From assembly GCA_913778085.1 (NCBI GenBank), contig CAJYXJ010000078.1:1-64000 (forward strand): a DNA stretch of 64,000 nt, written 5' to 3'. Shown here in pieces: positions 533 to 59,045 of the stretch (positions are counted from its first letter, which is position 1; every line of letters starts with the position of its first letter). A program made the position numbers and the translations under genes. A model generated the notes under the pieces. That model worked only from the letters and a program-made list of their open reading frames with translations, was not told the DNA's origin and did not search any database. The DNA is from an uncultured Chryseobacterium sp. Its GTDB lineage: Bacteria > Bacteroidota > Bacteroidia > Flavobacteriales > Weeksellaceae.

Positions 533-2023
533 TTATTTCTGACTGTTTTTTTTAAGCCATTCGAGATATTTTTCCTTTAAAAATACATTTCCGTCTTTTC
601 TGTATTCCGGAGTGGATGCTGTAAAATGATCTCCGGGATAGTAAGCAAACTTAAAATCTGAATTCAGTTTTTTCATTTCCGTTTCCAAAGCATAAACAGA
701 TTTATCTAAAAAGAAGTTATCCTGATTACCCACTGCAATCCTTACTTTACCGTCTAAATCATTCTTAAGGGCTGTCCAGTTTTCCTTTAAAAAGGCTGTA
801 ATATCATATTTTTTCCAGTTTTCAAATACAGACTTATCAATATTTCCTGTAATCGGATCACACAATCTTTCAGGCAATCCATCCTTCCCTTTCTTACTAA
901 AAACAGAATTAAAGGAATTGAGTTGTTCACCGCGATAAATTACATTTTCAAGTTGAAAAATATCTTTCATTTTCATCCAGGGAATATTCCCGGCAACTGA
1001 AGATAATAACCTCGGGGTAAGATCATTCTGATAAAACATATTTATATCAGTGTATAAATTTATCATTTGAAAATTTTCGAAATTTACAGGATCCGGCGAA
1101 CTGGAGAAACAGGCAACAAATGTCTTTGGGTAATGGGTCTGGAGCCATAAGGAAGACCAACCACCACTGCTATGACCGGTAAGCAATCGTGCACCATTAA
1201 CTCTATAGCTCTTTTCCAAAATGGGGATAAATTCTTTTACCAGGGCTTCTCCCCAAGGTCCGTTATTATCACTGTCTGCATATACAGAATGCCCTGATCT
1301 GCAATTGCCGTCCAGGAAAACTTTGATAACCGGAACATCTTCAAGCGGGGCCGTTGGTACACTGTTTCCGGAAAAGTAATGATAATCTGCTCCATAACCG
1401 AATATTGTGAACAAGACCGGGAATTTGCGGCTGGGCTCTGTAAAATATTCCACAGGTAAAACCACCGCCGCATCTATGGTCATCGGCATCCTTTGAAAAT
1501 TGCTCAGTAAAGCAGATGGCACTTTCAGTTCTTTCACATATTGGGTATTGGTAAAAGTTTTTGCCGGAACAATCTCTGTGGCACTGATTTTAATGATTTC
1601 AGAATAATTTTTGGTCAATGTGATCTTTCTGCTTTTACTGAATAAATTTCCCGCACTTTCAGAAATCTGTCTCCCCCCAAGATTTCTGTCCCAAACAATT
1701 TGTACATAATATTCTCCGCGCTCAATGTCTGAAAGAACTTTAGGGTAAGAAACGGCATCATCGCCGATTAAAAAAGAATCTCCAGCTTTTAGGTTTTTAA
1801 CCGATTTTCGAAAACAGGGAAATAAATCAACCCCAACAGCACCATTTTTGGGTTCCTGATTATCTTTTGAGAGGTAAACAATTACATTCCCCGTGAAGTT
1901 ATCAGCATAAACCGACGGCAGATAACTTACTTCAAATGTTTGCGCAAAACCCTGTGCAAAGCAAAAGCAGAGAACAAAAACGGGTAATAATTTTTCTATA
2001 AGTCCTGGTTTAATTTTTGGCAT
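533..2023 (-). CDS. Secreted alpha/beta-hydrolase of the putative esterase (esterase D/enterochelin esterase-like) family
   Basis: 496 aa from the ATG at 2021-2023; the frame can be extended three codons to a GTG at 2032, which is less likely. The N-terminus carries a signal peptide ending near FAQGFAQ. About 170 residues of beta-rich sequence precede the catalytic domain. The nucleophile elbow GHSSGG gives Ser285, the catalytic His is probably in YYPGDHFT near residue 466, and an acidic residue lies between them. The layout fits PF00756-type esterases that act on sugar esters, siderophores or peptides, but the substrate cannot be read from sequence. It stands alone, with its own terminator to the left and a separate lipoprotein gene to the right. 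Confidence 0.8.
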   Translation of the reverse strand: MPKIKPGLIEKLLPVFVLCFCFAQGFAQTFEVSYLPSVYADNFTGNVIVYLSKDNQEPKNGAVGVDLFPCFRKSVKNLKAGDSFLIGDDAVSYPKVLSDIERGEYYVQIVWDRNLGGRQISESAGNLFSKSRKITLTKNYSEIIKISATEIVPAKTFTNTQYVKELKVPSALLSNFQRMPMTIDAAVVLPVEYFTEPSRKFPVLFTIFGYGADYHYFSGNSVPTAPLEDVPVIKVFLDGNCRSGHSVYADSDNNGPWGEALVKEFIPILEKSYRVNGARLLTGHSSGGWSSLWLQTHYPKTFVACFSSSPDPVNFENFQMINLYTDINMFYQNDLTPRLLSSVAGNIPWMKMKDIFQLENVIYRGEQLNSFNSVFSKKGKDGLPERLCDPITGNIDKSVFENWKKYDITAFLKENWTALKNDLDGKVRIAVGNQDNFFLDKSVYALETEMKKLNSDFKFAYYPGDHFTASTPEYRKDGNVFLKEKYLEWLKKNSQK

Positions 2024-2151
2024 AAAACACACCTTTTAGTTATATGATTTAAATTTAAGACAATCATAAAACAGCAATTATTACATCGCATTCTGAGATT
2101 CCAGACAGATTCTTTGCTTATATGCCTGAATTTTTAAAAGATTACGATTTT

Positions 2152-2592
2152 TCAACTTTCTTCAATCTTGTAAATATAATTGTATTTAATCTTTTCAGCT
2201 TTCTTAAACAGATCCTCAATCAAATATTTCTTATCGTTAATTTTAACATTTTTAACCGTCGATTTCAGATCAAAATTATCCGATTTTTCAATCCTTAGTG
2301 TTGAATTTGCAGGTATTTCAAATGTAATACTTTCATTAACAACCGCTTTTTCCATATACTTGAGATTTTTAGATTTTCTGAACTCTCCAGGTTTTACTAT
2401 TCGGTTTTCATAAGTGAAACCAACCCGTATGTCATCACCATTTTTCAGGTTACTGAATATGTTTTTTCTAAAATTAATGGTTACCGTTTGCTTTGAGGAC
2501 GTTAGATTTTGAATGAAAAATTCTGTTGAAACCGAGCAGCTAAACAGCAGTAAAAGGGTAACAAGACCTAAAAATGTTTTGATTTGTTTCAT
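2152..2592 (-). CDS. Small lipoprotein of unknown function
   Basis: 146 aa with a type II signal peptide: MKQIKTFLGLVTLLLLFSC places the lipid-modified Cys at residue 19. The mature part is a beta-rich domain with basic and hydrophobic alternation (TVTINFRKNIF, STLRIEKSDNFD) and a Lys-rich C-terminus. No known family is recognised. It is probably anchored in the outer or inner membrane facing the periplasm. It sits alone between the esterase and the GC-richer module starting at 2948. AT-rich composition like its left neighbours. Confidence 0.7.
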   Translation of the reverse strand: MKQIKTFLGLVTLLLLFSCSVSTEFFIQNLTSSKQTVTINFRKNIFSNLKNGDDIRVGFTYENRIVKPGEFRKSKNLKYMEKAVVNESITFEIPANSTLRIEKSDNFDLKSTVKNVKINDKKYLIEDLFKKAEKIKYNYIYKIEES

Positions 2593-2947
2593 GAGGAACC
2601 TATAGCTTTAATGAAAATTGTTGTAAATTTCACAGGCCCTAATTTAGAAATTTCTTTGGCATGAAATCTTTAAATTTCAGGAATTAAAGATCATATCCTG
2701 CCGGTTCTCTGATTTTCCTTATGAAAAATTTTCTTATTCTCAAAAGAGCAGACAGAAAACCTGTCATTTCTGAATTAAATAAACTTTGTTTATTCTTCAC
2801 TTTAATATGATGATTTCAATTGATTTAAATGAATATTGCCAGGCAATGACACATTGATTTTTTGAGCTAAAATACCTTAAATTCTTAATGTTAAAATATA
2901 AAAGTAAATTTAAACCGGCTCTAAAGATTTTTGCGAAAAAAATCAGG
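2593..2947. other. Intergenic region, about 355 bp
   Basis: AT-rich spacer upstream of the lipoprotein and downstream of the 176-aa orphan. I see no reading frame, strong hairpin or repeat in it. It marks the left border of the compositionally different module at 2948-4480. Confidence 0.5.
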
Positions 2948-3478
2948 TCACTTTCCGGTTGCTGTTCTTTCTACAATCAGCCATGCGGCATCGAGGATTT
3001 TTGTGAGGTGGAGGTATGGGGTGATGATCCCCGCTTCGTCTTCGCACCTTAAGTCGGACAGCGAGAAATAGGCCACCGTCGAGAGAAAATCATTATATTC
3101 CTGCAGGGTGCAGGTTTTGAAAGCGTGCCGGAAGACCTTTGCCGGATTGTGGTATTCTTCTGCGGAAAGAGAACCCGTTACTGCTTTGGGAGAAAGGGTT
3201 TGCGAAAGAACGCTGTACCTTCCTTTCTTTGCTTTTTTCCCGATCAGACGGGCGGCCCGGACCAGCGAACGGAGCGACTGGTGCAGATGGAAGATTCCGG
3301 CAGGGTCTTTACGGATCCGGGCTTTCCGCTGTACTGAACACTGCATCATAAGGCTAAGGTTCTGTTTCACTTCGGCAAGATCATTGAACTGGAAGAAGGT
3401 CTCCAAAAGGCCCACCGCCGAATGATTCCGGGTGCCGGACCAGAAACCGGCTTCAAAGTCTGTTTTTTTCTTTTTCAT
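2948..3478 (-). CDS. Conserved-looking protein of unknown function, 176 aa
   Basis: Starts at ATG 3476-3478 with MKKKKTDFEAGFWSG. No signal peptide or membrane segment. The middle is strongly basic (QRKARIRKDPAGIFH, IGKKAKKGRYS) and predicted largely helical, which would suit nucleic-acid binding, but no family is recognised. Base composition is clearly GC-richer than the genes on both sides. It is divergent from the small Xre regulator at 4236 and next to the nuclease-STAND gene, so it may be part of a mobile or defence-associated module. I believe similar proteins occur in other Chryseobacterium genomes, but this needs a search. Confidence 0.6.
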   Translation of the reverse strand: MKKKKTDFEAGFWSGTRNHSAVGLLETFFQFNDLAEVKQNLSLMMQCSVQRKARIRKDPAGIFHLHQSLRSLVRAARLIGKKAKKGRYSVLSQTLSPKAVTGSLSAEEYHNPAKVFRHAFKTCTLQEYNDFLSTVAYFSLSDLRCEDEAGIITPYLHLTKILDAAWLIVERTATGK

Positions 3479-4235
3479 TTTCTGTTTTTTTAGGTTTATG
3501 GGTTAGTTAATAGCTGATAGTTGATAGCAGTTAGCTTCTGGCTTGAAATCAGAATTTTAAAATTCAAAAACAAAGTATTCAATTATTTCAAATACGTATC
3601 AATCGTTACAACGGCGTTTCCTGGGTAGATGAAATGGTAAAAGGATTTGTCTTCTCTGGTCATCATGGGCTGAGCATGCGGGGGCCGGGGTGTCCTGATG
3701 ACAGGCCATTACCAGATAACTAGCAATGCTTTCTCCTTTGGCAGGCCAATGGTTGATTTTTTATAAATTCCTTCCGTGACGAAAATAATTTGGAAAATTG
3801 GTAGAAAGCCAGTACTTTTAAGGGACGAGTTTAGCGTACTTCGGCTTTCCTTTGCGCTTAAAGGAATTTCGGAGGGCGGCGGTTTTTGATTGCGGCTATG
3901 CCCCGCCTTCCTGCACTTGCGGGCAGTTTCGGTATAGCCTGTTATCGGTGATGCGGTGGGACCCGGTTATTCCGGAGGGCCCATGGGCGGAAGGGTTGAA
4001 AATTTTATTTTTCATCATTTGTTTTTTTATGAAAGCCTCTCCTAAAGCCATCGTAAAATCACGCCCTGCCGTCCGAAAAGTGAGGAACTTTTTGGCAACC
4101 ATTTCCTTTAAGGAAATCGTCACGCCGACTCGGATGCGTCTTTTTAATGGTCTTTAGAGACTGTTGTTAAGTTGCCGATACAAATGTAAAAATAATTTTT
4201 AATTGTGGCAATAAAACCACAATATTTTTTTTGAT
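3479..4235. other. Long structured intergenic region between orphan gene and Xre regulator
   Basis: About 750 bp with locally high GC around 3840-4000. It contains short perfect inverted repeats, for example TTCCTTT...AAAGGAA near 3848-3866 and ATTTCCTTTAAGGAAAT at 4101-4117. A minus-strand frame (3896-4102) is reported separately as doubtful. The region 3505-3550 holds TTAGTTAATAGCTGATAG-type low-complexity DNA common between genes in this genus. No RNA gene was recognised. Confidence 0.45.
3896..4102 (-). CDS. Doubtful small protein in the structured intergenic region
   Basis: 68 aa from ATG 4100-4102 (MVAKKFLTFRTAGRDF...); a GTG seven codons upstream at 4123 is also possible. The first 40 residues look protein-like and basic; the last 25 (SGITGSHRITDNRLYRN...) are less so. 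It would be transcribed in the same direction as the 176-aa orphan downstream. No family recognised. An overlapping plus-strand frame (3852-4157) is about as long, so coding is not proven. Confidence 0.25.
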   Translation of the reverse strand: MVAKKFLTFRTAGRDFTMALGEAFIKKQMMKNKIFNPSAHGPSGITGSHRITDNRLYRNCPQVQEGGA

Positions 4236-4460
4236 ATGGACGAAAAATTTGTGACTATCTATAAAACAATCGGTGAAAATCTGAGAGATAAGAGAAAAGA
4301 AAAAAATCTATCGCAACAACAATTGGCAGATTTAGCGGGTAAAATTGATCGATCTAAGATTAGTGATATTGAGAATGGTAAGGAAGATTTTTTGTTTTCT
4401 ACTCTATTAAAAATTTGTACCGCACTGGATATTAATATTGAAGAGCTTTTCAAAAGATAA
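4236..4460 (+). CDS. Small Xre/HTH_3-family transcriptional regulator
   Basis: 74 aa, almost entirely one Cro/CI-type helix-turn-helix domain. IGENLRDKRKEKNLSQQQLADLAG (shown here only as the HTH start) leads into KIDRSKISDIENGKEDF, the typical recognition helix, and LLKICTALDINIEEL closes the domain. No dimerisation or effector domain is present. Regulators of this size often act as controllers of restriction-modification or other defence genes. It lies directly before the nuclease-STAND gene, but on the opposite strand and ending towards it, with a terminator in between. It is AT-rich like the STAND gene. Confidence 0.85.
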   Translation: MDEKFVTIYKTIGENLRDKRKEKNLSQQQLADLAGKIDRSKISDIENGKEDFLFSTLLKICTALDINIEELFKR

Positions 4461-4504
4461 ATTTATTATTCTCCCCATACAAACATAATTATATCTGTAT
4501 ACAG

Positions 4505-4543
4505 AAAAAAGGCCGTCTCACAACTCGTGAAAACGGCCTTTTT
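4505..4543 (+). terminator. Rho-independent terminator of the Xre regulator
   Basis: AAAAAGGCCGT (4506-4516) pairs with ACGGCCTTTTT (4533-4543). The A- and T-runs on both sides make it usable from either strand, so it may also stop the convergent STAND gene. Confidence 0.8.
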
Positions 4544-4708
4544 ATGAAATTTTCCTGTATCCCTATACGAGAAGGGTTTTCGTTTTAACGATTCTCAACC
4601 CACATCATCTAGTTGTTAAACATCTTCTTTAGCTGGCAATTATATGTGATTGTTGGACAAATTATTATTTAAATAGAACGCTTTATAATTTAAATAGTAT
4701 TAGCTTAT

Positions 4709-7369
4709 TTATTGCTTTTTAAACCAAGTTATTACTTTAGTTGCATAGATAATTTTTGAACTTTCTTTTTCTCCACCAAAAAAATCCCGTGGCAATAATT
4801 TTATTAACTCTTTTGCTTTAATTTTTGGATTTTTTTCAATTATTGAGTTTAAAGTTATCATCTTAGGTAAAATTAACATCCGTTTTCTTAATAAATCTAC
4901 ATATAAGTCACTATCTAATTTAAATAACTTTTGTCCAAATTTTGTCAATTTTTTCTCATTATCAATTATATCGAAAATTAGTAATTCTCTTTTAAATTTA
5001 CTGCTTATATTTCCTATGTCGTCTAAAAGAGGAATTATTTCAACAAATTCTTTTATTGAAATTTTTGGTAATAGATCCTCTTTATTTTGTAAATTCAATT
5101 TACTCCCGTTTCCTCTTCCTCTTGTTGGTTCTATTAAGCGGCTTTTAATATCTAGATTTGAAAACAAAAACCAACTAATAAGATGCTTTGCGTAAGAATC
5201 CCAAGTGTTTTCTTGAAAATCCTGTTTAAAATTATTTTTAAGAACTTGTATAACATCGATTTTATTTATCTTATTGGACTTTAATTTATTTAAAACTAAA
5301 TAAGGTGTATAATTTTGAAACTTATTTGTAATATAATCAATAAACCCCTCTTTACTAGTGCTGATTTCTGGATTAATAATATATTTTTCATCAATTTTTT
5401 GTACTAAGCCCAAGTTTCTTAATTCCATAAGAATATTTGATAAGGTATCCTGAGTAATACCCCGATGATGTTTCTTTAAAATATTTTCTAACGATTCTGG
5501 TTTATTTTGTTCAAGTAATTGAAAAACTTCAAAACATAAATTAACACCTTGACGCAACAAATAACTCTCTCCAATAACAGGTATCTTTCCGGTAACTAAA
5601 TAATCTCTATAAATATCCCAATAAATATTATAATTAGAACCTGAACGAATAATTAATCTTTTATTAATTAAATCAGCAATAGTATTATTATCAATTAGTT
5701 CTCCGACCTCTGTCTCGTCAAAGAAGTTTCCATCAAAAGCTCTTTTTGCTATTAAGTTTATCGCTTTTAACTCCTTTCCATTAAGTCTTTCTTCGTCTTT
5801 TTTGAACAGTCCTTGAATATTTAGGTTTGATTCTAGCAAGTCATTTTTTGCGGTTCCTAAGTGGATTTGATCAAGAATGTGTATACAAAGCTTTTTCGTT
5901 AACCAAGGTAATCCTTGTGAACTTTCTTTAATTCTATCTTTAATTGACTTATTTAAATGTCCTACAGAATCTTCCAATTGTTTAATTATTGCATCTATTT
6001 CTTTTTCACCAAATTCAGTTATGGTAAATTCCCTAGCTTGCTCTTTGGCTTGTTGCCAAATATGATATGATGGATCTTCACTTTGTAAAAAGAAATCTGA
6101 TTTCCAAGAAAATCCAATTATTAAATTAGGCTTCGTATCAGTAACATCTGTAAGAAATTTATAAAAAGTTTTGAAAAAATCTTTTTTCCTAAATACATCT
6201 TCAAACTGATCAAAGATTAAAACTAAAAATTTATTTTCTGATTTTAGTTTATCTAGTACTGAAATAATACTTTCTGATGACAACAAATCTACTATAGAAG
6301 TAAATTCCAATTTATTTCTATAAGACAAATCTAAATCTATAAATTTACTTTCAATAGCTTGATTTATAAGCTTTTTAAAAGATAAAGCAACAAAATTTTC
6401 TGAATTAGCACTTCTAGTATCGATCGCAATTGCAAAAAAACTATTTCTAAAATGCTTATTTAAACATCTACCTTTCAATTCTAAAACTAACGAACTTTTA
6501 CCCCATCCAGATTTGCCGTTAAGATAAAAAATTCTCTTACTTGTCTTATTTTGTCTTATTTCTTTAAAGTACTGCAATATATTTGTTCTTATTTCATCTC
6601 TTCCAACAAAATGATGTTTGGCTGAAGAGGCCGGTTTATAGTCAAACCAGTTTTCACTTTCTTGTACTTCTGAAATAGTTTCTATTGGAATACTAGAATT
6701 TAAATTGCTTTCCTGTTTTGTGTAATTCTCAATTTTTGAAATTAACTCCAGGTTTGATATTTCATTTATTTTTGATTGAAGTAAATTAATAGTTTCTCTC
6801 TCAATTCTTTCATTATTTCGTCTAGCATTTATTATTATATACTTCGTAGGTAAAGCACTTGATTCATTTACTAAATAAATAAAATAATCTCCTAAAAATG
6901 TGACTGCTAAAATTTTTTTTGAAATACTGTAATGTGCAAGTTTATCTAAAGGCTCATATATTAATTTACCATCAGATAGCATCTGGATCATATCTTTTGG
7001 CTCAAAAAAGGTTAAATTTTTATACCTTTCATCTTCTCTCATTTCAATAAGCAACGCACCTGCCTGACTTTGTAATTCTTGAGATCTAAAAAAGTAACCT
7101 TTATCAATTCTTTTATGAGATACATTAAAAGCAAACTTTGAAAGTTCATCCGAAGTAACCTTTTCTTTTGCTTTACATTCAACATATAACTTTTCCCCAT
7201 TATGCTTGTGTTCTGCAATTAAATCTATTTCTAATCCAGCAAAGTTTATATTTTGTTTAATTTCATATTGATTAATAGATAATAAATTCCTGACTAAATC
7301 TTCAAAACAATTTCCTTTTGCCTTATTTGAAGAGTTTTCATCAAGTATTACTTTTATTTCTGTTTTCAT
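4709..7369 (-). CDS. PD-(D/E)XK nuclease-like domain fused to a STAND NTPase; candidate antiphage defence protein
   Basis: 886 aa, no signal peptide or membrane segment. Residues 17-110 look like a Mrr/PD-(D/E)XK nuclease: GNCFED (Glu23), GLEIDL (Asp49) and YVECKAK (Glu64, Lys66) supply the usual acidic and lysine residues. A linker to about 250 is followed by FVGRDE (254-259), Walker A GKSGWGKS (285-292) and Walker B LVLIFDQFED (382-391), typical of STAND NTPases. GLPWL (486-490) and YWDIYRDYL (583-591) fit the end of the ATPase and its winged-helix part. The 300-residue C-terminus has winged-helix-like, helical sequence with no recognised repeat, and is the likely sensor. Known STAND defence proteins of the Avs type share effector-STAND-sensor order but are usually longer. 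Single gene, very AT-rich, next to a small Xre gene: probably acquired. Nuclease activity and defence role are inferences. Confidence 0.8.
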   Translation of the reverse strand: MKTEIKVILDENSSNKAKGNCFEDLVRNLLSINQYEIKQNINFAGLEIDLIAEHKHNGEKLYVECKAKEKVTSDELSKFAFNVSHKRIDKGYFFRSQELQSQAGALLIEMREDERYKNLTFFEPKDMIQMLSDGKLIYEPLDKLAHYSISKKILAVTFLGDYFIYLVNESSALPTKYIIINARRNNERIERETINLLQSKINEISNLELISKIENYTKQESNLNSSIPIETISEVQESENWFDYKPASSAKHHFVGRDEIRTNILQYFKEIRQNKTSKRIFYLNGKSGWGKSSLVLELKGRCLNKHFRNSFFAIAIDTRSANSENFVALSFKKLINQAIESKFIDLDLSYRNKLEFTSIVDLLSSESIISVLDKLKSENKFLVLIFDQFEDVFRKKDFFKTFYKFLTDVTDTKPNLIIGFSWKSDFFLQSEDPSYHIWQQAKEQAREFTITEFGEKEIDAIIKQLEDSVGHLNKSIKDRIKESSQGLPWLTKKLCIHILDQIHLGTAKNDLLESNLNIQGLFKKDEERLNGKELKAINLIAKRAFDGNFFDETEVGELIDNNTIADLINKRLIIRSGSNYNIYWDIYRDYLVTGKIPVIGESYLLRQGVNLCFEVFQLLEQNKPESLENILKKHHRGITQDTLSNILMELRNLGLVQKIDEKYIINPEISTSKEGFIDYITNKFQNYTPYLVLNKLKSNKINKIDVIQVLKNNFKQDFQENTWDSYAKHLISWFLFSNLDIKSRLIEPTRGRGNGSKLNLQNKEDLLPKISIKEFVEIIPLLDDIGNISSKFKRELLIFDIIDNEKKLTKFGQKLFKLDSDLYVDLLRKRMLILPKMITLNSIIEKNPKIKAKELIKLLPRDFFGGEKESSKIIYATKVITWFKKQ

Positions 7370-7456
7370 ATTAGGTTATTATATTGAGATTTACAAATAT
7401 CCAATAAATAATCAATGAAAACAATTTAATTCTGAATATGAAATTAATATATTACC

Positions 7457-7483
7457 AAAAAAACCCCATCATTTCTGACGAGG
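7457..7483 (-). terminator. Rho-independent terminator of the DUF5606 operon
   Basis: On the minus strand CCTCGTCA (7476-7483) pairs with TGATGGGG (7464-7471) around a GAAA tetraloop, followed by seven T's. It closes the ruvX-def-DUF5606 transcript just before the STAND gene promoter region. Confidence 0.75.
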
Positions 7484-7509
7484 TCTATATTTTAAGTAAG
7501 ATAAATCAA

Positions 7510-8076
7510 TTATCCCTGTTTTCTGTGCGTGCTTTTCGGAGCGGCTTTGGCTGCGGAAGAAGCTTTTACTTTCGGAGCGGCTGGCTTTTCTGCTTTTGGA
7601 GCTGCTTTTTTAGGGGCTTCTTTTTCTACGTTCAGGTCTTCCGTCTGAGCAGGCTCACCGTCTAAGGTTTCAGGTTCTGCTTTTACGAAGCTTTCCGGCG
7701 TGATGTATCCTGCTTTCTGAAGGATGTTGTACCATTGGACCAGTTTTTTGATATCGGAAGCATATACCCTTTCGGTATCGTAGTTCGGAAGGGAAGCCGT
7801 CATGAATTCTTTAAGCTCGGCATCGGTAGCCTTGTGGTGGATCGCTTCCTTGTAATCGTAGTTTTTAGCAATATTTTCAAAAACCTCGAACAGAGGAACT
7901 TCTTTATCCACGGTAAACATCGCGATGTTATCCAGCAAGCTCACCTGGCTGGAGTTGCCGATGCTCACTTTTTTCTTGGTGGTAACGTCTTCAATAATAA
8001 ATCCGTTTCTTAATTGGGAAACTAATTTGAAAAGTCCCGGCTTTCCGGAAATTGAAATTATTTTTTCTAACAGCAT
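7510..8076 (-). CDS. DUF5606 family protein with Ala/Lys/Pro-rich tail
   Basis: 188 aa. Residues 1-130 match the DUF5606 family of Bacteroidota (MLLEKIISISGKPGLFKLVSQ, a small beta-barrel-like start, then a helical part ending WYNILQKAGYI). Residues 135-188 are a low-complexity tail of Ala, Lys, Pro and Glu that is likely disordered and basic at its end (STHRKQG). The function is unknown; the basic tail would allow nucleic-acid or ribosome contact. It follows def and ruvX on the same strand with a 95-bp gap, the usual neighbourhood in this group. Confidence 0.85.
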   Translation of the reverse strand: MLLEKIISISGKPGLFKLVSQLRNGFIIEDVTTKKKVSIGNSSQVSLLDNIAMFTVDKEVPLFEVFENIAKNYDYKEAIHHKATDAELKEFMTASLPNYDTERVYASDIKKLVQWYNILQKAGYITPESFVKAEPETLDGEPAQTEDLNVEKEAPKKAAPKAEKPAAPKVKASSAAKAAPKSTHRKQG

Positions 8077-8171
8077 AATTTTATTTTTTGTAATTCTGCA
8101 ATCGGTTCCTGCACTTCGGCGGGCTCGGTGGAAGAACGTTCTGCGTTTTTATTCTTATTTTCTTATTCTAC

Positions 8172-8744
8172 TTATTTCGGAAATCTCATTTTATAACCGA
8201 TGCTTACGTCACCCTGGGTAATTTTGGTCAGTTTACCTTTTACGAGCTTCTTTTTCAAAGCACTGAGATGATCGGTAAACAGGATCCCTTCAATGTGGTC
8301 GTACTCATGCTGGATTACGCGGGCCCTAATATCGGAAAAAGTTTCTGTATGTTTTACAAAATTTTCGTCATAATATTCAATCAGGATGGTTTCCTTTCTC
8401 TTCACATCCTCCCTTACATCGGGAATAGAAAGGCATCCTTCGTTGAATTTCCACTCTTCGCCGGATTCTTCAAGGATTTTCGCGTTAATGAATACTTTTT
8501 TGAATTCGGCCAGCTCATCCTTAATGTCTTCATAATCTTCGTCTTCCGCCAGCGGGCTTACGTCGATTACGAAAAGGCGGATGTCCAGCCCCACCTGCGG
8601 TGCCGCAAGGCCGATTCCGTTGGCACTGTACATCGTGTCGAACATATTTCCTATCAACTCCTGCAGCCCGGGATAATCTTGGTCTATATCCTTTGCTACT
8701 TTTCTTAAAACCGGGTCCCCAAAAGCTCTAATCGGTAAAATCAT
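8172..8744 (-). CDS. def: Peptide deformylase
   Basis: 190 aa, the normal length. Removes the formyl group from the N-terminal methionine of new proteins in the cytoplasm. All three signature motifs are present: GIGLAAPQVG (about 43-52), EGCLSIP (about 103-109, Cys metal ligand) and QHEYDH (about 144-149, two His metal ligands and the catalytic Glu). Its ATG overlaps the TGA of ruvX by four bases (ATGA), so the two are translationally coupled. Confidence 0.97.
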   Translation of the reverse strand: MILPIRAFGDPVLRKVAKDIDQDYPGLQELIGNMFDTMYSANGIGLAAPQVGLDIRLFVIDVSPLAEDEDYEDIKDELAEFKKVFINAKILEESGEEWKFNEGCLSIPDVREDVKRKETILIEYYDENFVKHTETFSDIRARVIQHEYDHIEGILFTDHLSALKKKLVKGKLTKITQGDVSIGYKMRFPK

Positions 8745-9157
8745 CTTGTTCTTTGTTCTAAAAAATTCTGCAATATAATGGTTGCACTCACTTTATCTAT
8801 TAATCCCTTTTCCTGTCTCTGTTTTTTGCTTTTCCCGCTTTGGGAGATAAAAAACGAAGCCATTTTGGAGGTGAACCTTTCATCGAAGCGATGCACTTTT
8901 ACAGCCGGAAATTCTTTTTCAAAAATTGCTATGAATTTTAGAATATCCGTTTCCACTTCGGAAACATTCCCTTTCAGGTCTACAGGAAGGCCGATAACCA
9001 CTTCATCCACCCGGTTTTCGCTGAAATATTTTTTCAGGAACCCGATGAGTGAGGGGGTCTGTACCGTATCCAGGCCGCTTGCAATAATCTGCATATCGTC
9101 CGTTGCTGCCATACCGCAGCGGGCTTTTCCGTAATCAATAGCAAGGATCTGTCCCAT
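8741..9157 (-). CDS. ruvX: Putative pre-16S rRNA nuclease / Holliday junction resolvase-like protein (YqgF family)
   Basis: 138 aa. RNase H-fold start MGQILAIDYGKARCGMAATD with the first catalytic Asp, then VIGLPVDLKGN (Glu-equivalent region) and VHRFDERFTS, followed by the C-terminal Asp in KGLIDKVSA. The family processes the 5' end of 16S rRNA in E. coli and was first named as a resolvase. First gene of the ruvX-def-DUF5606 operon; a TAAATTTG promoter element lies seven bases before the start. Confidence 0.93.
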   Translation of the reverse strand: MGQILAIDYGKARCGMAATDDMQIIASGLDTVQTPSLIGFLKKYFSENRVDEVVIGLPVDLKGNVSEVETDILKFIAIFEKEFPAVKVHRFDERFTSKMASFFISQSGKSKKQRQEKGLIDKVSATIILQNFLEQRTR

Positions 9158-9164
9158 AGGTTTG

Positions 9165-9172
9165 CAAATTTA
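9165..9172 (-). promoter_or_regulatory. Bacteroidota-type -7 element (TAAATTTG) for ruvX operon
   Basis: Reads TAAATTTG on the minus strand, matching the TAnnTTTG consensus. It is only seven bases from the ruvX ATG, so the transcript would have a very short leader. No clear TTG at -33 was found. Confidence 0.45.
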
Positions 9173-9386
9173 GTAAATTTTAATGATTTTATTCCAAAAG
9201 CCGTTTTTTATTACTTCCCGTATTCTTCTTAGCGGCTTCAGCTGCTTTCCGTATAACCTTACATGATAGGAAATACTTGTTTAAATGGGGATTGAATAGG
9301 AAAATTCTATGCAATTGCCTTGTTTTTTTACAAATCATGTTTTATTACGCTAATTTTTTTATAAATTTAATTTTCAAAACAAAATT

Positions 9387-9863
9387 ATGAAGAAACTCAT
9401 CCTCGTTAGACATGCAAAAAGCGACTGGCCGGAAGAAACGGACGACTTCAACAGACCATTGGCAGACAAAGGTTTAGAAGAAGCGATGCATATGTCCCGT
9501 TTTATGAAGACCCATAATGTACCGATCGATTATTTCGTGTCGAGCCCGGCGGTGCGTGCCCTGAATACGTGTAAAATCTTCAACCAGTCTTATGATATCG
9601 ACATCAGTACGGATGAGAAATTGTACAACCCGCTGGAAAGCAATTTTGAATCGGTTATTTACAATCTGGACGACAGCCATGAATCGGTGGCTTTCTTCTC
9701 CCACAATAACGGGATCTCCAATTTTGCGAATTCCATTTCGCAGGATATTTTCCACTTCCCGACCTGCGGCGTAGCAGGCTTTGAAATCGACTGCAATTCG
9801 TGGTCTGAATTTGACGGTGCAAAAAAGAAACTGCTGTTTTTTTACGAGCCTGGAAAAATTTAG
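9387..9863 (+). CDS. sixA: SixA-like histidine phosphatase
   Basis: 158 aa of the histidine phosphatase superfamily. LILVRHAKSDW carries the RH(G/A) catalytic histidine near residue 9, and FFSHNNGISNFA carries the second histidine. SSPAVRALNTC supplies the phosphate-binding Arg. SixA in E. coli removes phosphate from phosphohistidine of the ArcB phosphotransfer domain or PTS proteins; the target here is unknown. Cytoplasmic, single gene, divergent from ruvX and converging on the hydrolase at 10064. Confidence 0.8.
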   Translation: MKKLILVRHAKSDWPEETDDFNRPLADKGLEEAMHMSRFMKTHNVPIDYFVSSPAVRALNTCKIFNQSYDIDISTDEKLYNPLESNFESVIYNLDDSHESVAFFSHNNGISNFANSISQDIFHFPTCGVAGFEIDCNSWSEFDGAKKKLLFFYEPGKI

Positions 9864-10016
9864 CCCTTATTCAGGCTGAGGCTCGGAGGCGGATGATAGA
9901 TGCTGGAAATTCCCTTTGTAACATCAATGACAGCAGTCTTTAATATTATGTATATTCTGTTAAGAGAATACTGTTTCAGGCTTCTCGTTACTTTTTCTCT
10001 CGTAAACTGCTGAAAA

Positions 10017-10042
10017 TAGAAAAAACGGACCGAAGCCCGTTT
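10017..10042 (-). terminator. Rho-independent terminator of the beta-lactamase-fold hydrolase
   Basis: On the minus strand AAACGGGC (10035-10042) pairs with GTCCGTTT (10023-10030) around a UUCG-type tetraloop, followed by a T-run. Lies 20 bp after the stop. Confidence 0.75.
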
Positions 10043-10063
10043 CTGTTAATGCCTATTCTGAAA

Positions 10064-11608
10064 TTATTTTCTTCTTAAATCCAGGTCCTCGAAATCAAAA
10101 CTGAAATCCGTAACATCGGAAATCGGTTTTAATCTCGCAGATTGTGCTTTTCCGGTTTCATCATAATCAAAGATCATGTATACATCTGCATCGTAACTCC
10201 GGTCATCCCATCTGATGATGAATGAATTATTGGAATACGGCAGCAGCTCCCCTTTCAATCTCGGTGAATTTTTACATGAAATTCTATAGGCATTTCCCTG
10301 TTGGGCAATTTCGACATCACCAAACCACCGGTCGTTATAAGTTCCGACAAATTGCTCCGCTTTCGGCTGAAGGTTTTTATCTTTTCTGAAAGCTTCGGAT
10401 TTTGCAAACGCTTCTTTCTTCTGCTTATCAAACATTTCTTCCGTCTTTTTCATCCGGTCGCCGTAGGTTTTCAGCCAGTTCCGGTCGGCAATCCCGAGGT
10501 AAGAATCTTTCACCGTATTGGTAACCGTATTGAAAGCGGCTCCCGACTGCTGGTTGGTTAAGACCACAATTCCCAGTTTCATATCAGGAATCAGGGTAAA
10601 CTGCGTTACGGTTCCGATCAATCCGCCGGTATGCTGAACCTGTTTATGGCCTTTGACGTCACTTAAGAACCAGCCCATTCCGTATCCATAGAAATTCGTA
10701 TCGTATGGATTTTTCGCGGCTACACCGGCTGGAATCTGCAGGCTCCAAAGCTGCTGTACATTTTTATCCGAAACCAGTTTTTTGCCGTCTTTGGTAGTAA
10801 AGTTATTCAGCAGGAATTCTGCCCATGTTGTCATGTCTTTGATGTTGCTCATAATCCCGCCTGCTGCATTGGCAGTTTCGTTCCAGTCGTGGGGCACGGC
10901 AATCGCTTTTCCGTCTACCGGAGCATGGGCATCGATTTTATTGGCTACGGCTTTGGCTCTGTTGTAGCTTCCGTAGCTGGAAAGCATACCTACCGGCTTC
11001 ATGATACGCTGCTCAATAAATTCTGCCCAGCTGAGACCGGAAACCCTATGGATAACTTCACCCGCTACGATAAACATGATGTTGTTGTAATCGAGAGTTG
11101 TACGGAAAGGATTTTCCGGCTTCAGGTAGCGCACATTATGGACGATATCATTAACGGTTAAGTTTCCGCCTTCCGGAAAAAACATCAGGTCTCCCTGCCC
11201 AAGGCCCAATCCTGCACGGTGCGTTACCAGATCCTTAACGGTTACATTCTGGGAAACATAGGGATCGTACATCTGGAATTCAGGGATATATTTCGAAACT
11301 TTATCGTCCCAGCTCAGTTTTCCTTCATCGGCCAGAATAGCCAGTGCGGTACAGGTAAACCCTTTTGAATTAGAGGCGATACCAACAAGGGTATTGTCGT
11401 CCATCGGCTGTTTCGCCGTTAAAGAGCGGACGCCGAATCCTTTTGAGTAGATCACTTTTCCGTCTTTGATGACGCCGACCGACATCCCCGGCACGTCGAA
11501 TGTTTTTAAGGTATTCTGAATTAATTCATCCAGCTTTTTCTCTTCCACCTGTGCCTGGGCGATCCCCACCGTCAAAAGAAGAAGGAAAAAAGAAAGTCTC
11601 TGCTTCAT
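10064..11608 (-). CDS. Secreted serine hydrolase of the class C beta-lactamase/DD-peptidase fold
   Basis: 514 aa with a signal peptide (MKQRLSFFLLLLTVGIAQAQ). The catalytic set is complete: SNSK (Ser79, Lys82), YNN (Tyr174, Asn176) and HTGG (326-329). Residues 1-380 are the Pfam Beta-lactamase domain; the C-terminal 100 residues form a beta-barrel DUF3471-like domain. Such proteins are usually peptidases or esterases acting on peptidoglycan-derived or D-amino acid peptides rather than resistance enzymes. Located in the periplasm. Single-gene unit with its own terminator. Confidence 0.9.
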   Translation of the reverse strand: MKQRLSFFLLLLTVGIAQAQVEEKKLDELIQNTLKTFDVPGMSVGVIKDGKVIYSKGFGVRSLTAKQPMDDNTLVGIASNSKGFTCTALAILADEGKLSWDDKVSKYIPEFQMYDPYVSQNVTVKDLVTHRAGLGLGQGDLMFFPEGGNLTVNDIVHNVRYLKPENPFRTTLDYNNIMFIVAGEVIHRVSGLSWAEFIEQRIMKPVGMLSSYGSYNRAKAVANKIDAHAPVDGKAIAVPHDWNETANAAGGIMSNIKDMTTWAEFLLNNFTTKDGKKLVSDKNVQQLWSLQIPAGVAAKNPYDTNFYGYGMGWFLSDVKGHKQVQHTGGLIGTVTQFTLIPDMKLGIVVLTNQQSGAAFNTVTNTVKDSYLGIADRNWLKTYGDRMKKTEEMFDKQKKEAFAKSEAFRKDKNLQPKAEQFVGTYNDRWFGDVEIAQQGNAYRISCKNSPRLKGELLPYSNNSFIIRWDDRSYDADVYMIFDYDETGKAQSARLKPISDVTDFSFDFEDLDLRRK

Positions 11609-57955: not shown

Positions 57956-58169
57956 CAAATCGGTTTCACAAAACCTGTAATAAATTTATAATAAGGTGAT
58001 TAATTCTTTAAATATTAACAAGCGCAGCATTTGTCAATATTTAAAATTAATTTCAGCACATCATACATTTGAAAATCAATTATTTAAATAAAAAATAAAT
58101 TTTTATTCAAATGTCAACCATATATACTTGAGAGTTATCCCTAATTTTAGAATTCAATACGAACATAGA

Positions 58170-58622
58170 ATGGAATTTTTTAAAGGTAAATATCAAATAG
58201 TTACTGGAATTACTGCTGAGTACAAAATAAATCCTCAAAATCCAAAATATTTCGCAAAATTTGTGAATGATCATATCATGACTTTAGGACATACTGAAGA
58301 AGAAGCTATTGAAAGGTTAAAAAAACTTTATGAAGAATATAAGTTTAAAAATAAACTACACTGTATTTTGTCTAAACAAGTTCTTAACGCATTTGTACCA
58401 ACAGAAAAATTTGAAAAACATTTTGATAATGGAATTTCAATGGATTTTTTTGAACTAATTGGTAAAGACCCTTACACGCAAATAGATGATGAATTCACGA
58501 TAAAAGATTTGGAATTAGACACTCAACAAATTGAATTAATTAATACCAAATATAATATTGAAGTTAATGAGGAGGATATTATCGTAAATATCTTTGAAAA
58601 AATTGAAAAGAGCCAGGCATAA
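58170..58622 (+). CDS. AT-rich orphan, possibly an integron-like cassette gene
   Basis: 150 aa from ATG 58170; a TTG at 58128 would add 14 residues. No signal peptide; mixed alpha/beta (MEFFKGKYQIVTGITAEYKI, TEEEAIERLKKLYEEYKFKN, acidic C-terminus). No family recognised. AT-rich and unlike the neighbouring genes. Its stop codon TAA overlaps the first base of an attC-like hairpin (58617-58747), the usual layout of an integron cassette, and a GTTATCC at 58134 could mark the other cassette border. Confidence 0.7.
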   Translation: MEFFKGKYQIVTGITAEYKINPQNPKYFAKFVNDHIMTLGHTEEEAIERLKKLYEEYKFKNKLHCILSKQVLNAFVPTEKFEKHFDNGISMDFFELIGKDPYTQIDDEFTIKDLELDTQQIELINTKYNIEVNEEDIIVNIFEKIEKSQA

Positions 58623-58747
58623 CAAAGGCTTGCAATAATGGAACTAAACTGCAAAGTTCAACTGTTGTTCTTCGGTTTACCTTTTTTGCAAAGTAGAAGA
58701 TTTGCGCTTTAATTGCCTAACTATCGCAAAGCCCGGAAACGTTATAA
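58617..58747. repeat. attC-like (59-base-element-like) imperfect hairpin
   Basis: Ends: GCATAACAAAGGCTTGC (58617-58633) and GCAAAGCCCGGAAACGTTAT (58726-58745). ATAAC/GTTAT and GGCTTGC/GCAAAGCC pair as attC R- and L-boxes would, over about 130 bp, a length like Vibrio VCR sites. The right end reads GTTATAA (58741-58747), close to the GTTRRRY core. No integrase is in the window. Confidence 0.55.
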
Positions 58748-59045
58748 TTCCTGAAAAGACAATTAAATTAGAATTGCAGATGTCTCTTCAAAATACAAAA
58801 TTAATCCTGATAATAGAGACCTCTCTGAAAGCGGATTAAATGCCTGTTAAAATGTTTTGTAATTGCTGATGACAAATTATTATTGAATCAATGACTTTTA
58901 TGGTCACCCTTTTATAAATCAACTGTTGTAATAATGATAACATTTAAAACCTAACGGATTTTAGAAACCCATTAGGTGTATGTATTTATGTATTAACGTA
59001 TTTGCGTGGATTTTAAAACTATCAATGAGCAGGATATAAGCCTGT
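58748..59045. other. Intergenic remnant region after the attC-like site
   Basis: AT-rich, with a short open stretch reading ADVSSKYKINPDNRDLSESG (58776-58835), which slightly resembles the TAEYKINPQNP part of the orphan before it and may be a decayed cassette. A palindromic repeat lies at 58949-58977. No intact gene. Confidence 0.35.
58949..58977. repeat. Imperfect palindrome (ACCTAACGGATTTT...AAACCCATTAGGT)
   Basis: A REP-like hairpin between AT-rich arms with two mismatches and no T-run; similar in kind to the perfect palindrome at 25861. Confidence 0.55.

Follow-up and report, generated by a model that had tools for sequence, protein, structure and literature searches.

What does a protein that joins a nuclease to a STAND NTPase do in a Chryseobacterium genome, and does it act alone? 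The question is raised by a complete open reading frame (ORF) with an ATG start, encoding 886 aa at 4709..7369 on the minus strand of a 64,000-nucleotide stretch (hereafter the window) of contig CAJYXJ010000078.1 from an uncultured Chryseobacterium sp. The original prediction, made from the sequence of the window, had placed the gene at exactly this position and read its product as a PD-(D/E)XK nuclease fused to a STAND NTPase, a candidate single-gene antiphage defence system. We find an Mrr-type nuclease, an nSTAND1 NTPase and tandem winged-helix-containing units, in that order, with intact catalytic and Walker residues, an NLR-like predicted fold, a duplicated C-terminus and signs of mobility. 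Taken together, these features make it probable that this nuclease-STAND gene encodes a single-gene, mobile, NLR-like defence receptor in which a STAND module gates a DNase.

Comparisons within the family were based on an alignment of 32 proteins, comprising the window protein and 31 of the 36 relatives with extended matches. Five cut or short copies (L010, L024, L030, L033 and L037), eight loci that match in the NTPase only (L044–L051) and the plasmid relatives were left out. Both Mrr_cat and nSTAND1 were matched by all 32 proteins (Pfam, E ≤ 0.001). In the window protein, Mrr_cat (PF04471) spans residues 17–107 with 36.9 bits against a cut-off of 21 (E 4.4e-9), and nSTAND1 (PF20703) spans residues 250–469 with 37.4 bits against a cut-off of 27.1 (E 3.1e-9). 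Because these scores lie above the cut-offs, every relative in the alignment matches both families and the key residues are conserved, the assignment of a nuclease joined to a STAND module goes beyond chance.

The nuclease domain occupies residues 1–130 (6980..7369, minus strand) and carries the catalytic set that had been proposed for it, namely Glu23, Asp49 and, within YVECKAK, Glu64 and Lys66. Glu23 is kept in 31/32 proteins, and Asp49, Glu64, Cys65 and Lys66 in all 32. The structure model gives the helices and strands of the core in this order: a helix at residues 15–32, strands at 35–44, 47–54 and 60–66, a helix at 73–85 and a strand at 90–95. With its E..D..ExK set inside this helix-strand core, the domain belongs to the PD-(D/E)XK Mrr_cat nucleases, and it is predicted by analogy to cleave DNA. 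A second Pfam family, PF22722 (‘NACHT-associated inactive restriction endonuclease 1’), is matched by 13 of the 32 proteins although the catalytic residues are intact in the alignment; the name of that family may be too narrow.

The STAND nucleotide-binding (NBD) and helical (HD1) domains cover residues 241–529 (5783..6649, minus strand), with FVGR at residues 254–257, Walker A GKSGWGKS at 285–292 (6494..6517, minus strand) and Walker B DQFED at 387–391 (6197..6211, minus strand), all three located as first described. The Walker A G-GKSS core and the Walker B DQFE are kept in 32/32 proteins. A part resembling the winged-helix domain (WHD) of STAND proteins follows at residues 530–602 (5564..5782, minus strand); it bears a conserved YWDI(F/Y)R(D/E)Y motif and, at 42.6% mean pairwise identity, is more conserved than any of the other five regions compared. 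The predicted fold has the NBD-HD1-WHD arrangement of NLRs, and the model thus indicates an nSTAND1-type STAND NTPase with an NLR-like fold. The NACHT domain PF05729 was not among the Pfam matches of the window protein at E ≤ 1, and in the family it was matched by eight of the 32 members at 0.001, as against all 32 for nSTAND1. Mean pairwise identity is 34.1% in the nuclease and 39.6% in NBD-HD1. It is lowest in the alpha/beta linker region (21.6%; residues 131–240, 6650..6979, minus strand, weakly conserved and with low model confidence at 216–226) and in the first and second C-terminal units (22.3% and 19.4%), so the linker and the C-terminus are the most divergent parts of the family.

The C-terminus had been described as winged-helix-like and free of recognised repeats. 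The former description stands and the latter does not, as two tandem winged-helix-containing units are present. Unit 1 (residues 603–750; 5120..5563, minus strand) consists of a winged helix and a second helical, HTH-like (helix-turn-helix-like) part, and unit 2 (residues 764–884; 4718..5080, minus strand) is a second copy of it (hhalign probability 97.2, E 2.8e-11). The model of residues 601–886 has an AF2 pLDDT of 90.6. The C-terminus is therefore a tandem duplication of one unit, present in two copies here and in three in some Bacteroidota. At its far C-terminus, the Bacteroidota relative L019 (gene 7995–11399) carries helicase-associated (HA) domains (PF03457, 1.1e-32), another sign of C-terminal variability in the family.

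In a fold search, the closest structural neighbours of the C-terminus were DNA-reading domains at borderline Z; the matches to the unit included an Nt.BspD6I/AlwI-type domain and BrxA. The matched part of Nt.BspD6I is presumably its recognition domain. Pfam matches in the C-termini of relatives were mainly to DNA-binding HTH families, judged from the best 25 of 48 families. As to charge, basic character is lacking in the first winged helix and only mild in the C-terminus overall. Homology of the units to either fold match was not found at the level of sequence profiles: against 11 PF09491 proteins of the AlwI/Nt.BspD6I type, hhalign gave probabilities of 2.9 (unit 1) and 1.4 (unit 2), with 0.6 and 0.1 for reversed controls, and against 19 BrxA proteins (PF08849) it gave 0.2 for both units, with 0.1 for reversed controls. 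These sets represent 11/13 AlwI and 19/20 BrxA loci, the fragments L085 and L090 and the interrupted L106 being omitted. Unlike Nt.BspD6I/AlwI and BrxA, the window protein also has its module duplicated and joined to a STAND NTPase.

The tripartite effector-STAND-sensor design is shared with Avs (AVAST) proteins, some of which have nuclease effectors; Avs4 carries an Mrr-like nuclease. No Avs model (PADLOC, E ≤ 1) and no Avs chain (PDB family-profile search, E ≤ 10) was listed for the window protein, and both libraries presumably contain Avs entries. Avs chains were likewise absent among the fold matches listed for the full-length model, which the NTPase dominates, so that this absence excludes nothing. 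Judged from the available parts of the papers cited here and below, TPR is an example of an antiviral STAND sensor (PMC10907252), and Avs5 sensors are TPR, Sel1 or PPR repeats (PMC12931631). The window protein differs in this respect: it has no match to TPR or another known protein-binding repeat (Pfam, E ≤ 1, where HMMER filters drop weak matches), and its C-terminus is predicted to be winged-helix/HTH-like. It resembles bNACHT25 and bNACHT32, single PD-(D/E)XK-NACHT genes of clade 6 that defend by DNA degradation (PMC12169576), in combining an N-terminal PD-(D/E)XK DNase, a central STAND-class NTPase and a C-terminal sensor in a single polypeptide. Those two proteins, however, have a NACHT module and an NCH1 C-terminal helical domain (PMC12169576), whereas the window protein matches nSTAND1, not NACHT, and ends in the duplicated winged-helix-containing unit. 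PMC8195603 introduces nSTAND1 as one clade among predicted conflict systems whose effectors vary, and PMC7159879 lists Mrr-like REases as effectors in NTP-dependent conflict systems. The window protein shares the NTPase clade (PF20703) of these systems, for which varied effectors and sensors are reported (PMC8195603, PMC10907252, PMC7159879). Unlike it, the nSTAND1 proteins described in the available parts of these sources carry adaptor domains or FGE/C-lectin sensors, with no Mrr-nSTAND1-winged-helix fusion among them.

With PADLOC 2.0.0 as the library of defence models, no model matched the window protein over its full length, and the sole partial match was to CARF_PDDEXK (E 0.0019, residues 5–73). 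Among the best 25 of 46 families, a PDC-S02 model was matched by 16/32 family members (best 6.5e-8). Ten relatives were scanned in detail: one had no match at 0.001, and the other nine matched in single domains only, namely in the nuclease portion of PDC-S02 models, in P-loop segments of PDC-S20 and PDC-M62A models, and in a CARF_PDDEXK segment. We did not find an Mrr-nSTAND1-winged-helix protein described in the literature searched, which largely excluded subscription papers and bioRxiv. DefensePredictor has validated 13 PD-(D/E)XK systems in E. coli (PMC13092281), and our family may overlap with them. The same STAND core with a different N-terminus, that is, an effector swap, was not seen, though no systematic search was made.

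By analogy with these systems, we infer a defence role, ligand gating, oligomerisation and DNA cleavage. In the resting state, the STAND module (NBD-HD1-WHD) would keep the protein inactive. A ligand marking invasion would be bound by the C-terminal winged-helix array, leading to nucleotide exchange in the NTPase and to oligomerisation. The oligomer would gather the N-terminal Mrr-type nucleases, DNA would be cut, and either the invader DNA would be destroyed or the infected cell killed.

The ligand is the least certain step of this scheme, and the trigger may, as the original prediction suggested, be of a new kind. Because the array resembles DNA-reading modules, a nucleic-acid trigger is possible and about as likely as a phage protein. 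If the winged-helix units instead form a protein-binding surface, the receptor would respond, like Avs and bNACHT25, to a conserved phage protein or to the state of a host chaperone, and we give this version a substantial though less than even chance. The triggers of characterised Avs proteins are terminase, portal or early phage proteins (PMC12724215, PMC12931631), and in bNACHT25 phage proteins act through DnaJ (PMC12169576). A first winged helix that is not basic and a C-terminus that is only mildly so are in keeping with protein binding, and low C-terminal conservation fits an arms race with proteins. The lack of a recognised protein-binding repeat argues against it, as do the DNA-binding HTH families matched in relatives and the borderline structural similarity to DNA-reading domains. 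In a DNA-sensing NLR, by comparison, the array of restriction-enzyme-like DNA-recognition modules would read foreign DNA by its sequence, modification or structure and pass the signal through the STAND switch to the Mrr nuclease. The character of the first winged helix reduces the odds of this version, which we put forward only tentatively.

A further reading dispenses with the receptor altogether and makes the protein an NTP-dependent, modification-directed restriction enzyme of type IV character, with winged helices reading modified bases, the NTPase serving as a motor or clamp, and cleavage of the bound DNA in cis by the Mrr domain. Mrr-like catalytic domains are found in modification-dependent enzymes (PMC12707154). 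Winged-helix fusion type IV enzymes resemble the window protein in combining a PD-(D/E)XK or Mrr nuclease with a winged helix and sometimes an NTPase; PMC11037411 describes winged-helix and nuclease fusions that depend on N6-methyladenine and mentions a wH-Mrr-NTPase fusion. The absence of a constant partner among relatives, methyltransferases included, would also suit this reading. However, the enzymes described have a McrB-like NTPase and other domain orders (PMC11037411), whereas the window protein has a STAND NTPase of NLR type and a tandem C-terminal array, and neither a McrB-type AAA+ motor nor a modified-base reader (SRA, EVE, YTH, ASCH) was matched in it (Pfam, E ≤ 1). Methyltransferase genes do, moreover, stand beside some relatives, and we consider this reading unlikely.

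The STAND-gated receptor that we favour was proposed as a single-gene system, and the surroundings of its relatives agree with this. At 36 loci, three of them without neighbours on the contig, 323 neighbouring ORFs were compared by blastp, and no cluster occurred at more than four loci, although distant homologues may escape such a comparison. As no neighbour recurs beyond this, the nuclease-STAND gene most likely acts alone, and we rejected a two-gene system on this evidence together with the arrangement of the adjacent Xre gene described below. Scans for known families covered 203/323 of the ORFs (≥120 aa, ≤4 kb away, 32 loci) and gave the best 25 of 67 and 25 of 104 families for PADLOC, and the best 25 of 128 and 25 of 90 for Pfam. 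Among the families listed, PADLOC matches at 1e-20 near relatives included BREX parts (PglX/PglXI, PglZ, BrxA, BrxHI), type II and III methyltransferases, type II restriction enzymes, DrmD and candidate systems. The Pfam families listed included NgoPII, BsuBI/PstI, Abi_2, YhcG_C, HepT-like and TOTE, beside ordinary metabolic genes. Defence genes thus appear to be associated with relatives at some loci; we claim no enrichment value, because the number of distinct matching neighbours is not given and the control is a single genome. In the window itself, none of the 57 other ORFs ≥120 aa matches PADLOC at 1e-20, and the window copy lies outside any recognisable defence island.

The gene is a sporadic mobile accessory gene. 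Relatives at E ≤ 1e-10 occur in 2/174 same-genus genomes, namely the window’s own and one corresponding to a Chryseobacterium oryzae plasmid copy (63% identity), and a phylum-wide sample yielded 2/296 at E ≤ 1e-40, one being the source genome itself and the other holding a fragment where a contig ends. Genome contigs, when scanned, gave at least 44 loci, at least 36 of them with extended matches, and the family spans at least 12 phylum-level groups. Among 72,556 plasmid records there were 15 matches, some in chromosome-sized records, and the chromosome-sized Acinetobacter ‘plasmid’ records were not counted as plasmids. Clear plasmid carriers are C. oryzae (50 kb), Fuscovulum (157 kb), Burkholderia vietnamiensis (398 kb) and Nostoc (447 kb). 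No match was found among 50,697 phage records. In IMG/VR, 14 contigs match, with an integrase-family gene on 12/14, a portal gene on 4/14 and an HK97-type capsid gene on 1/14; the same integrase family is also present in 14/14 control genomes. On seven of these viral contigs (L119, L120, L121, L122, L125, L126 and L114), the relative ends ≤0.2 kb from an integrase-domain match. Since L119, L120, L121, L122 and L125 are near-identical (99.6–100%) and L126, itself a fragment, shares their 85-base gap, these amount to about two independent cases, in which the relative looks like cargo at the edge of an integrative element.

The tree of the 32 proteins, with phylum-level group labels assigned by hand, mixes phyla: copies from Chloroflexota and Eremiobacterota group together, one from Fusobacteriota falls among Pseudomonadota, and those from Sulfurospirillum are split between two clades. 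The mixing does not look free, as the six Bacteroidota proteins form one group (85/85) and the phylum labels are clustered overall (14 changes vs a shuffled mean of 22.1). In Enterobacter, Salmonella and Allocoleopsis, plasmids carry partial relatives that seem truncated or split next to insertion sequences; those of Enterobacter and Salmonella are L074, L075 and L077, near IS3 and/or IS110 genes, and heat-resistance genes lie near two of the three.

Residence on plasmids and proximity to integrase genes on half of the viral contigs would also be expected of a plasmid or prophage maintenance or exclusion factor, or of a regulator acting on competing elements, with no part in defence. Mobile elements nevertheless often carry defence cargo, the nuclease and NTPase residues are intact across 12 phylum-level groups, which suggests a generic nucleic-acid-targeting role, and defence genes occur among the neighbours of relatives; we regard such a non-defence role as improbable. 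That the window copy is a decaying passenger without function, as its rarity among congeners and the disrupted Enterobacter and Salmonella copies might suggest, is very improbable given its intact reading frame, its invariant residues and its 66% identity to an intact Flavobacteriia copy.

Turning to the surroundings in the window, the gene had been described as AT-rich between GC-richer neighbours. This difference is real, with a GC content of 0.265–0.288 over 4001–7000 against 0.478 at 3001–4000 and 0.355–0.406 at 7001–9000; it is not unique, as 2001–3000 (0.296) and 58001–59000 (0.273) are also low. The GC-richer patch at 3001–4000 contains most of a 176-aa ORF (2948–3478) with no Pfam match at E ≤ 1, and similar DNA occurs elsewhere in the genome on contigs C25, C5 and C54 (66–73%). 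Copies of a ~160-bp stretch at 2767–2925 are dispersed through the source genome (at least 10 places, some partial, ≤95% identity) and also occur in a congener (G142).

A small Xre gene (74 aa; 4236–4460, plus strand), which matches general HTH models (PADLOC, best 3.8e-13), had been noted as a regulator next to the nuclease-STAND gene. It is not arranged as an operon regulator, because the two genes converge and a hairpin followed by a T-run (~4505–4543, sequence inspected by eye) lies between them. With no constant neighbour among relatives either, it was rejected as a co-regulated partner. The ~95-bp stretch that holds the hairpin (4506–4600) corresponds to a dispersed repeat in another genome of the genus (G035), where all 23 matches listed fall in this stretch, at ≤96% identity.

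Upstream of the nuclease-STAND gene, on the minus strand, lies a DUF5606/DUF6852 gene (7510–8076), and beyond it are genes that we take to encode peptide deformylase and a RuvX-like protein. In 8/8 same-genus relatives examined, the next ORF ≥100 aa after the DUF5606 gene starts MNT(K/R)QEKLEAFGRLL and is presumably mazG. The source genome has this gene near the end of another contig, C29 (L073, 1105–4014), with ~2.3 kb of further sequence beyond it that includes a 481-aa Gly-rich, collagen-like ORF. Because the two genes are adjacent in all eight congeners and on different contigs here, an insertion or rearrangement separates them in the source genome, with ~7.4 kb of the window’s contig (C78) on this side. 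Across the assembly gap, the ends of C78 and C29 may be neighbours.

In the available parts of the literature cited above, the bacterial STAND defence receptors described sense phage proteins, and their usual sensors are TPR-like or other repeats. The present work would add a defence family without a full-length match in PADLOC 2.0.0. With its STAND switch, nuclease effector and duplicated winged-helix sensor, the family would make possible a compact test, on one gene, of whether nucleic acids can be read directly by NLR-type receptors. If the DNA-sensing version of the receptor is true, it would link restriction enzymes mechanistically with NLR immunity, and do so in at least 12 phylum-level groups.

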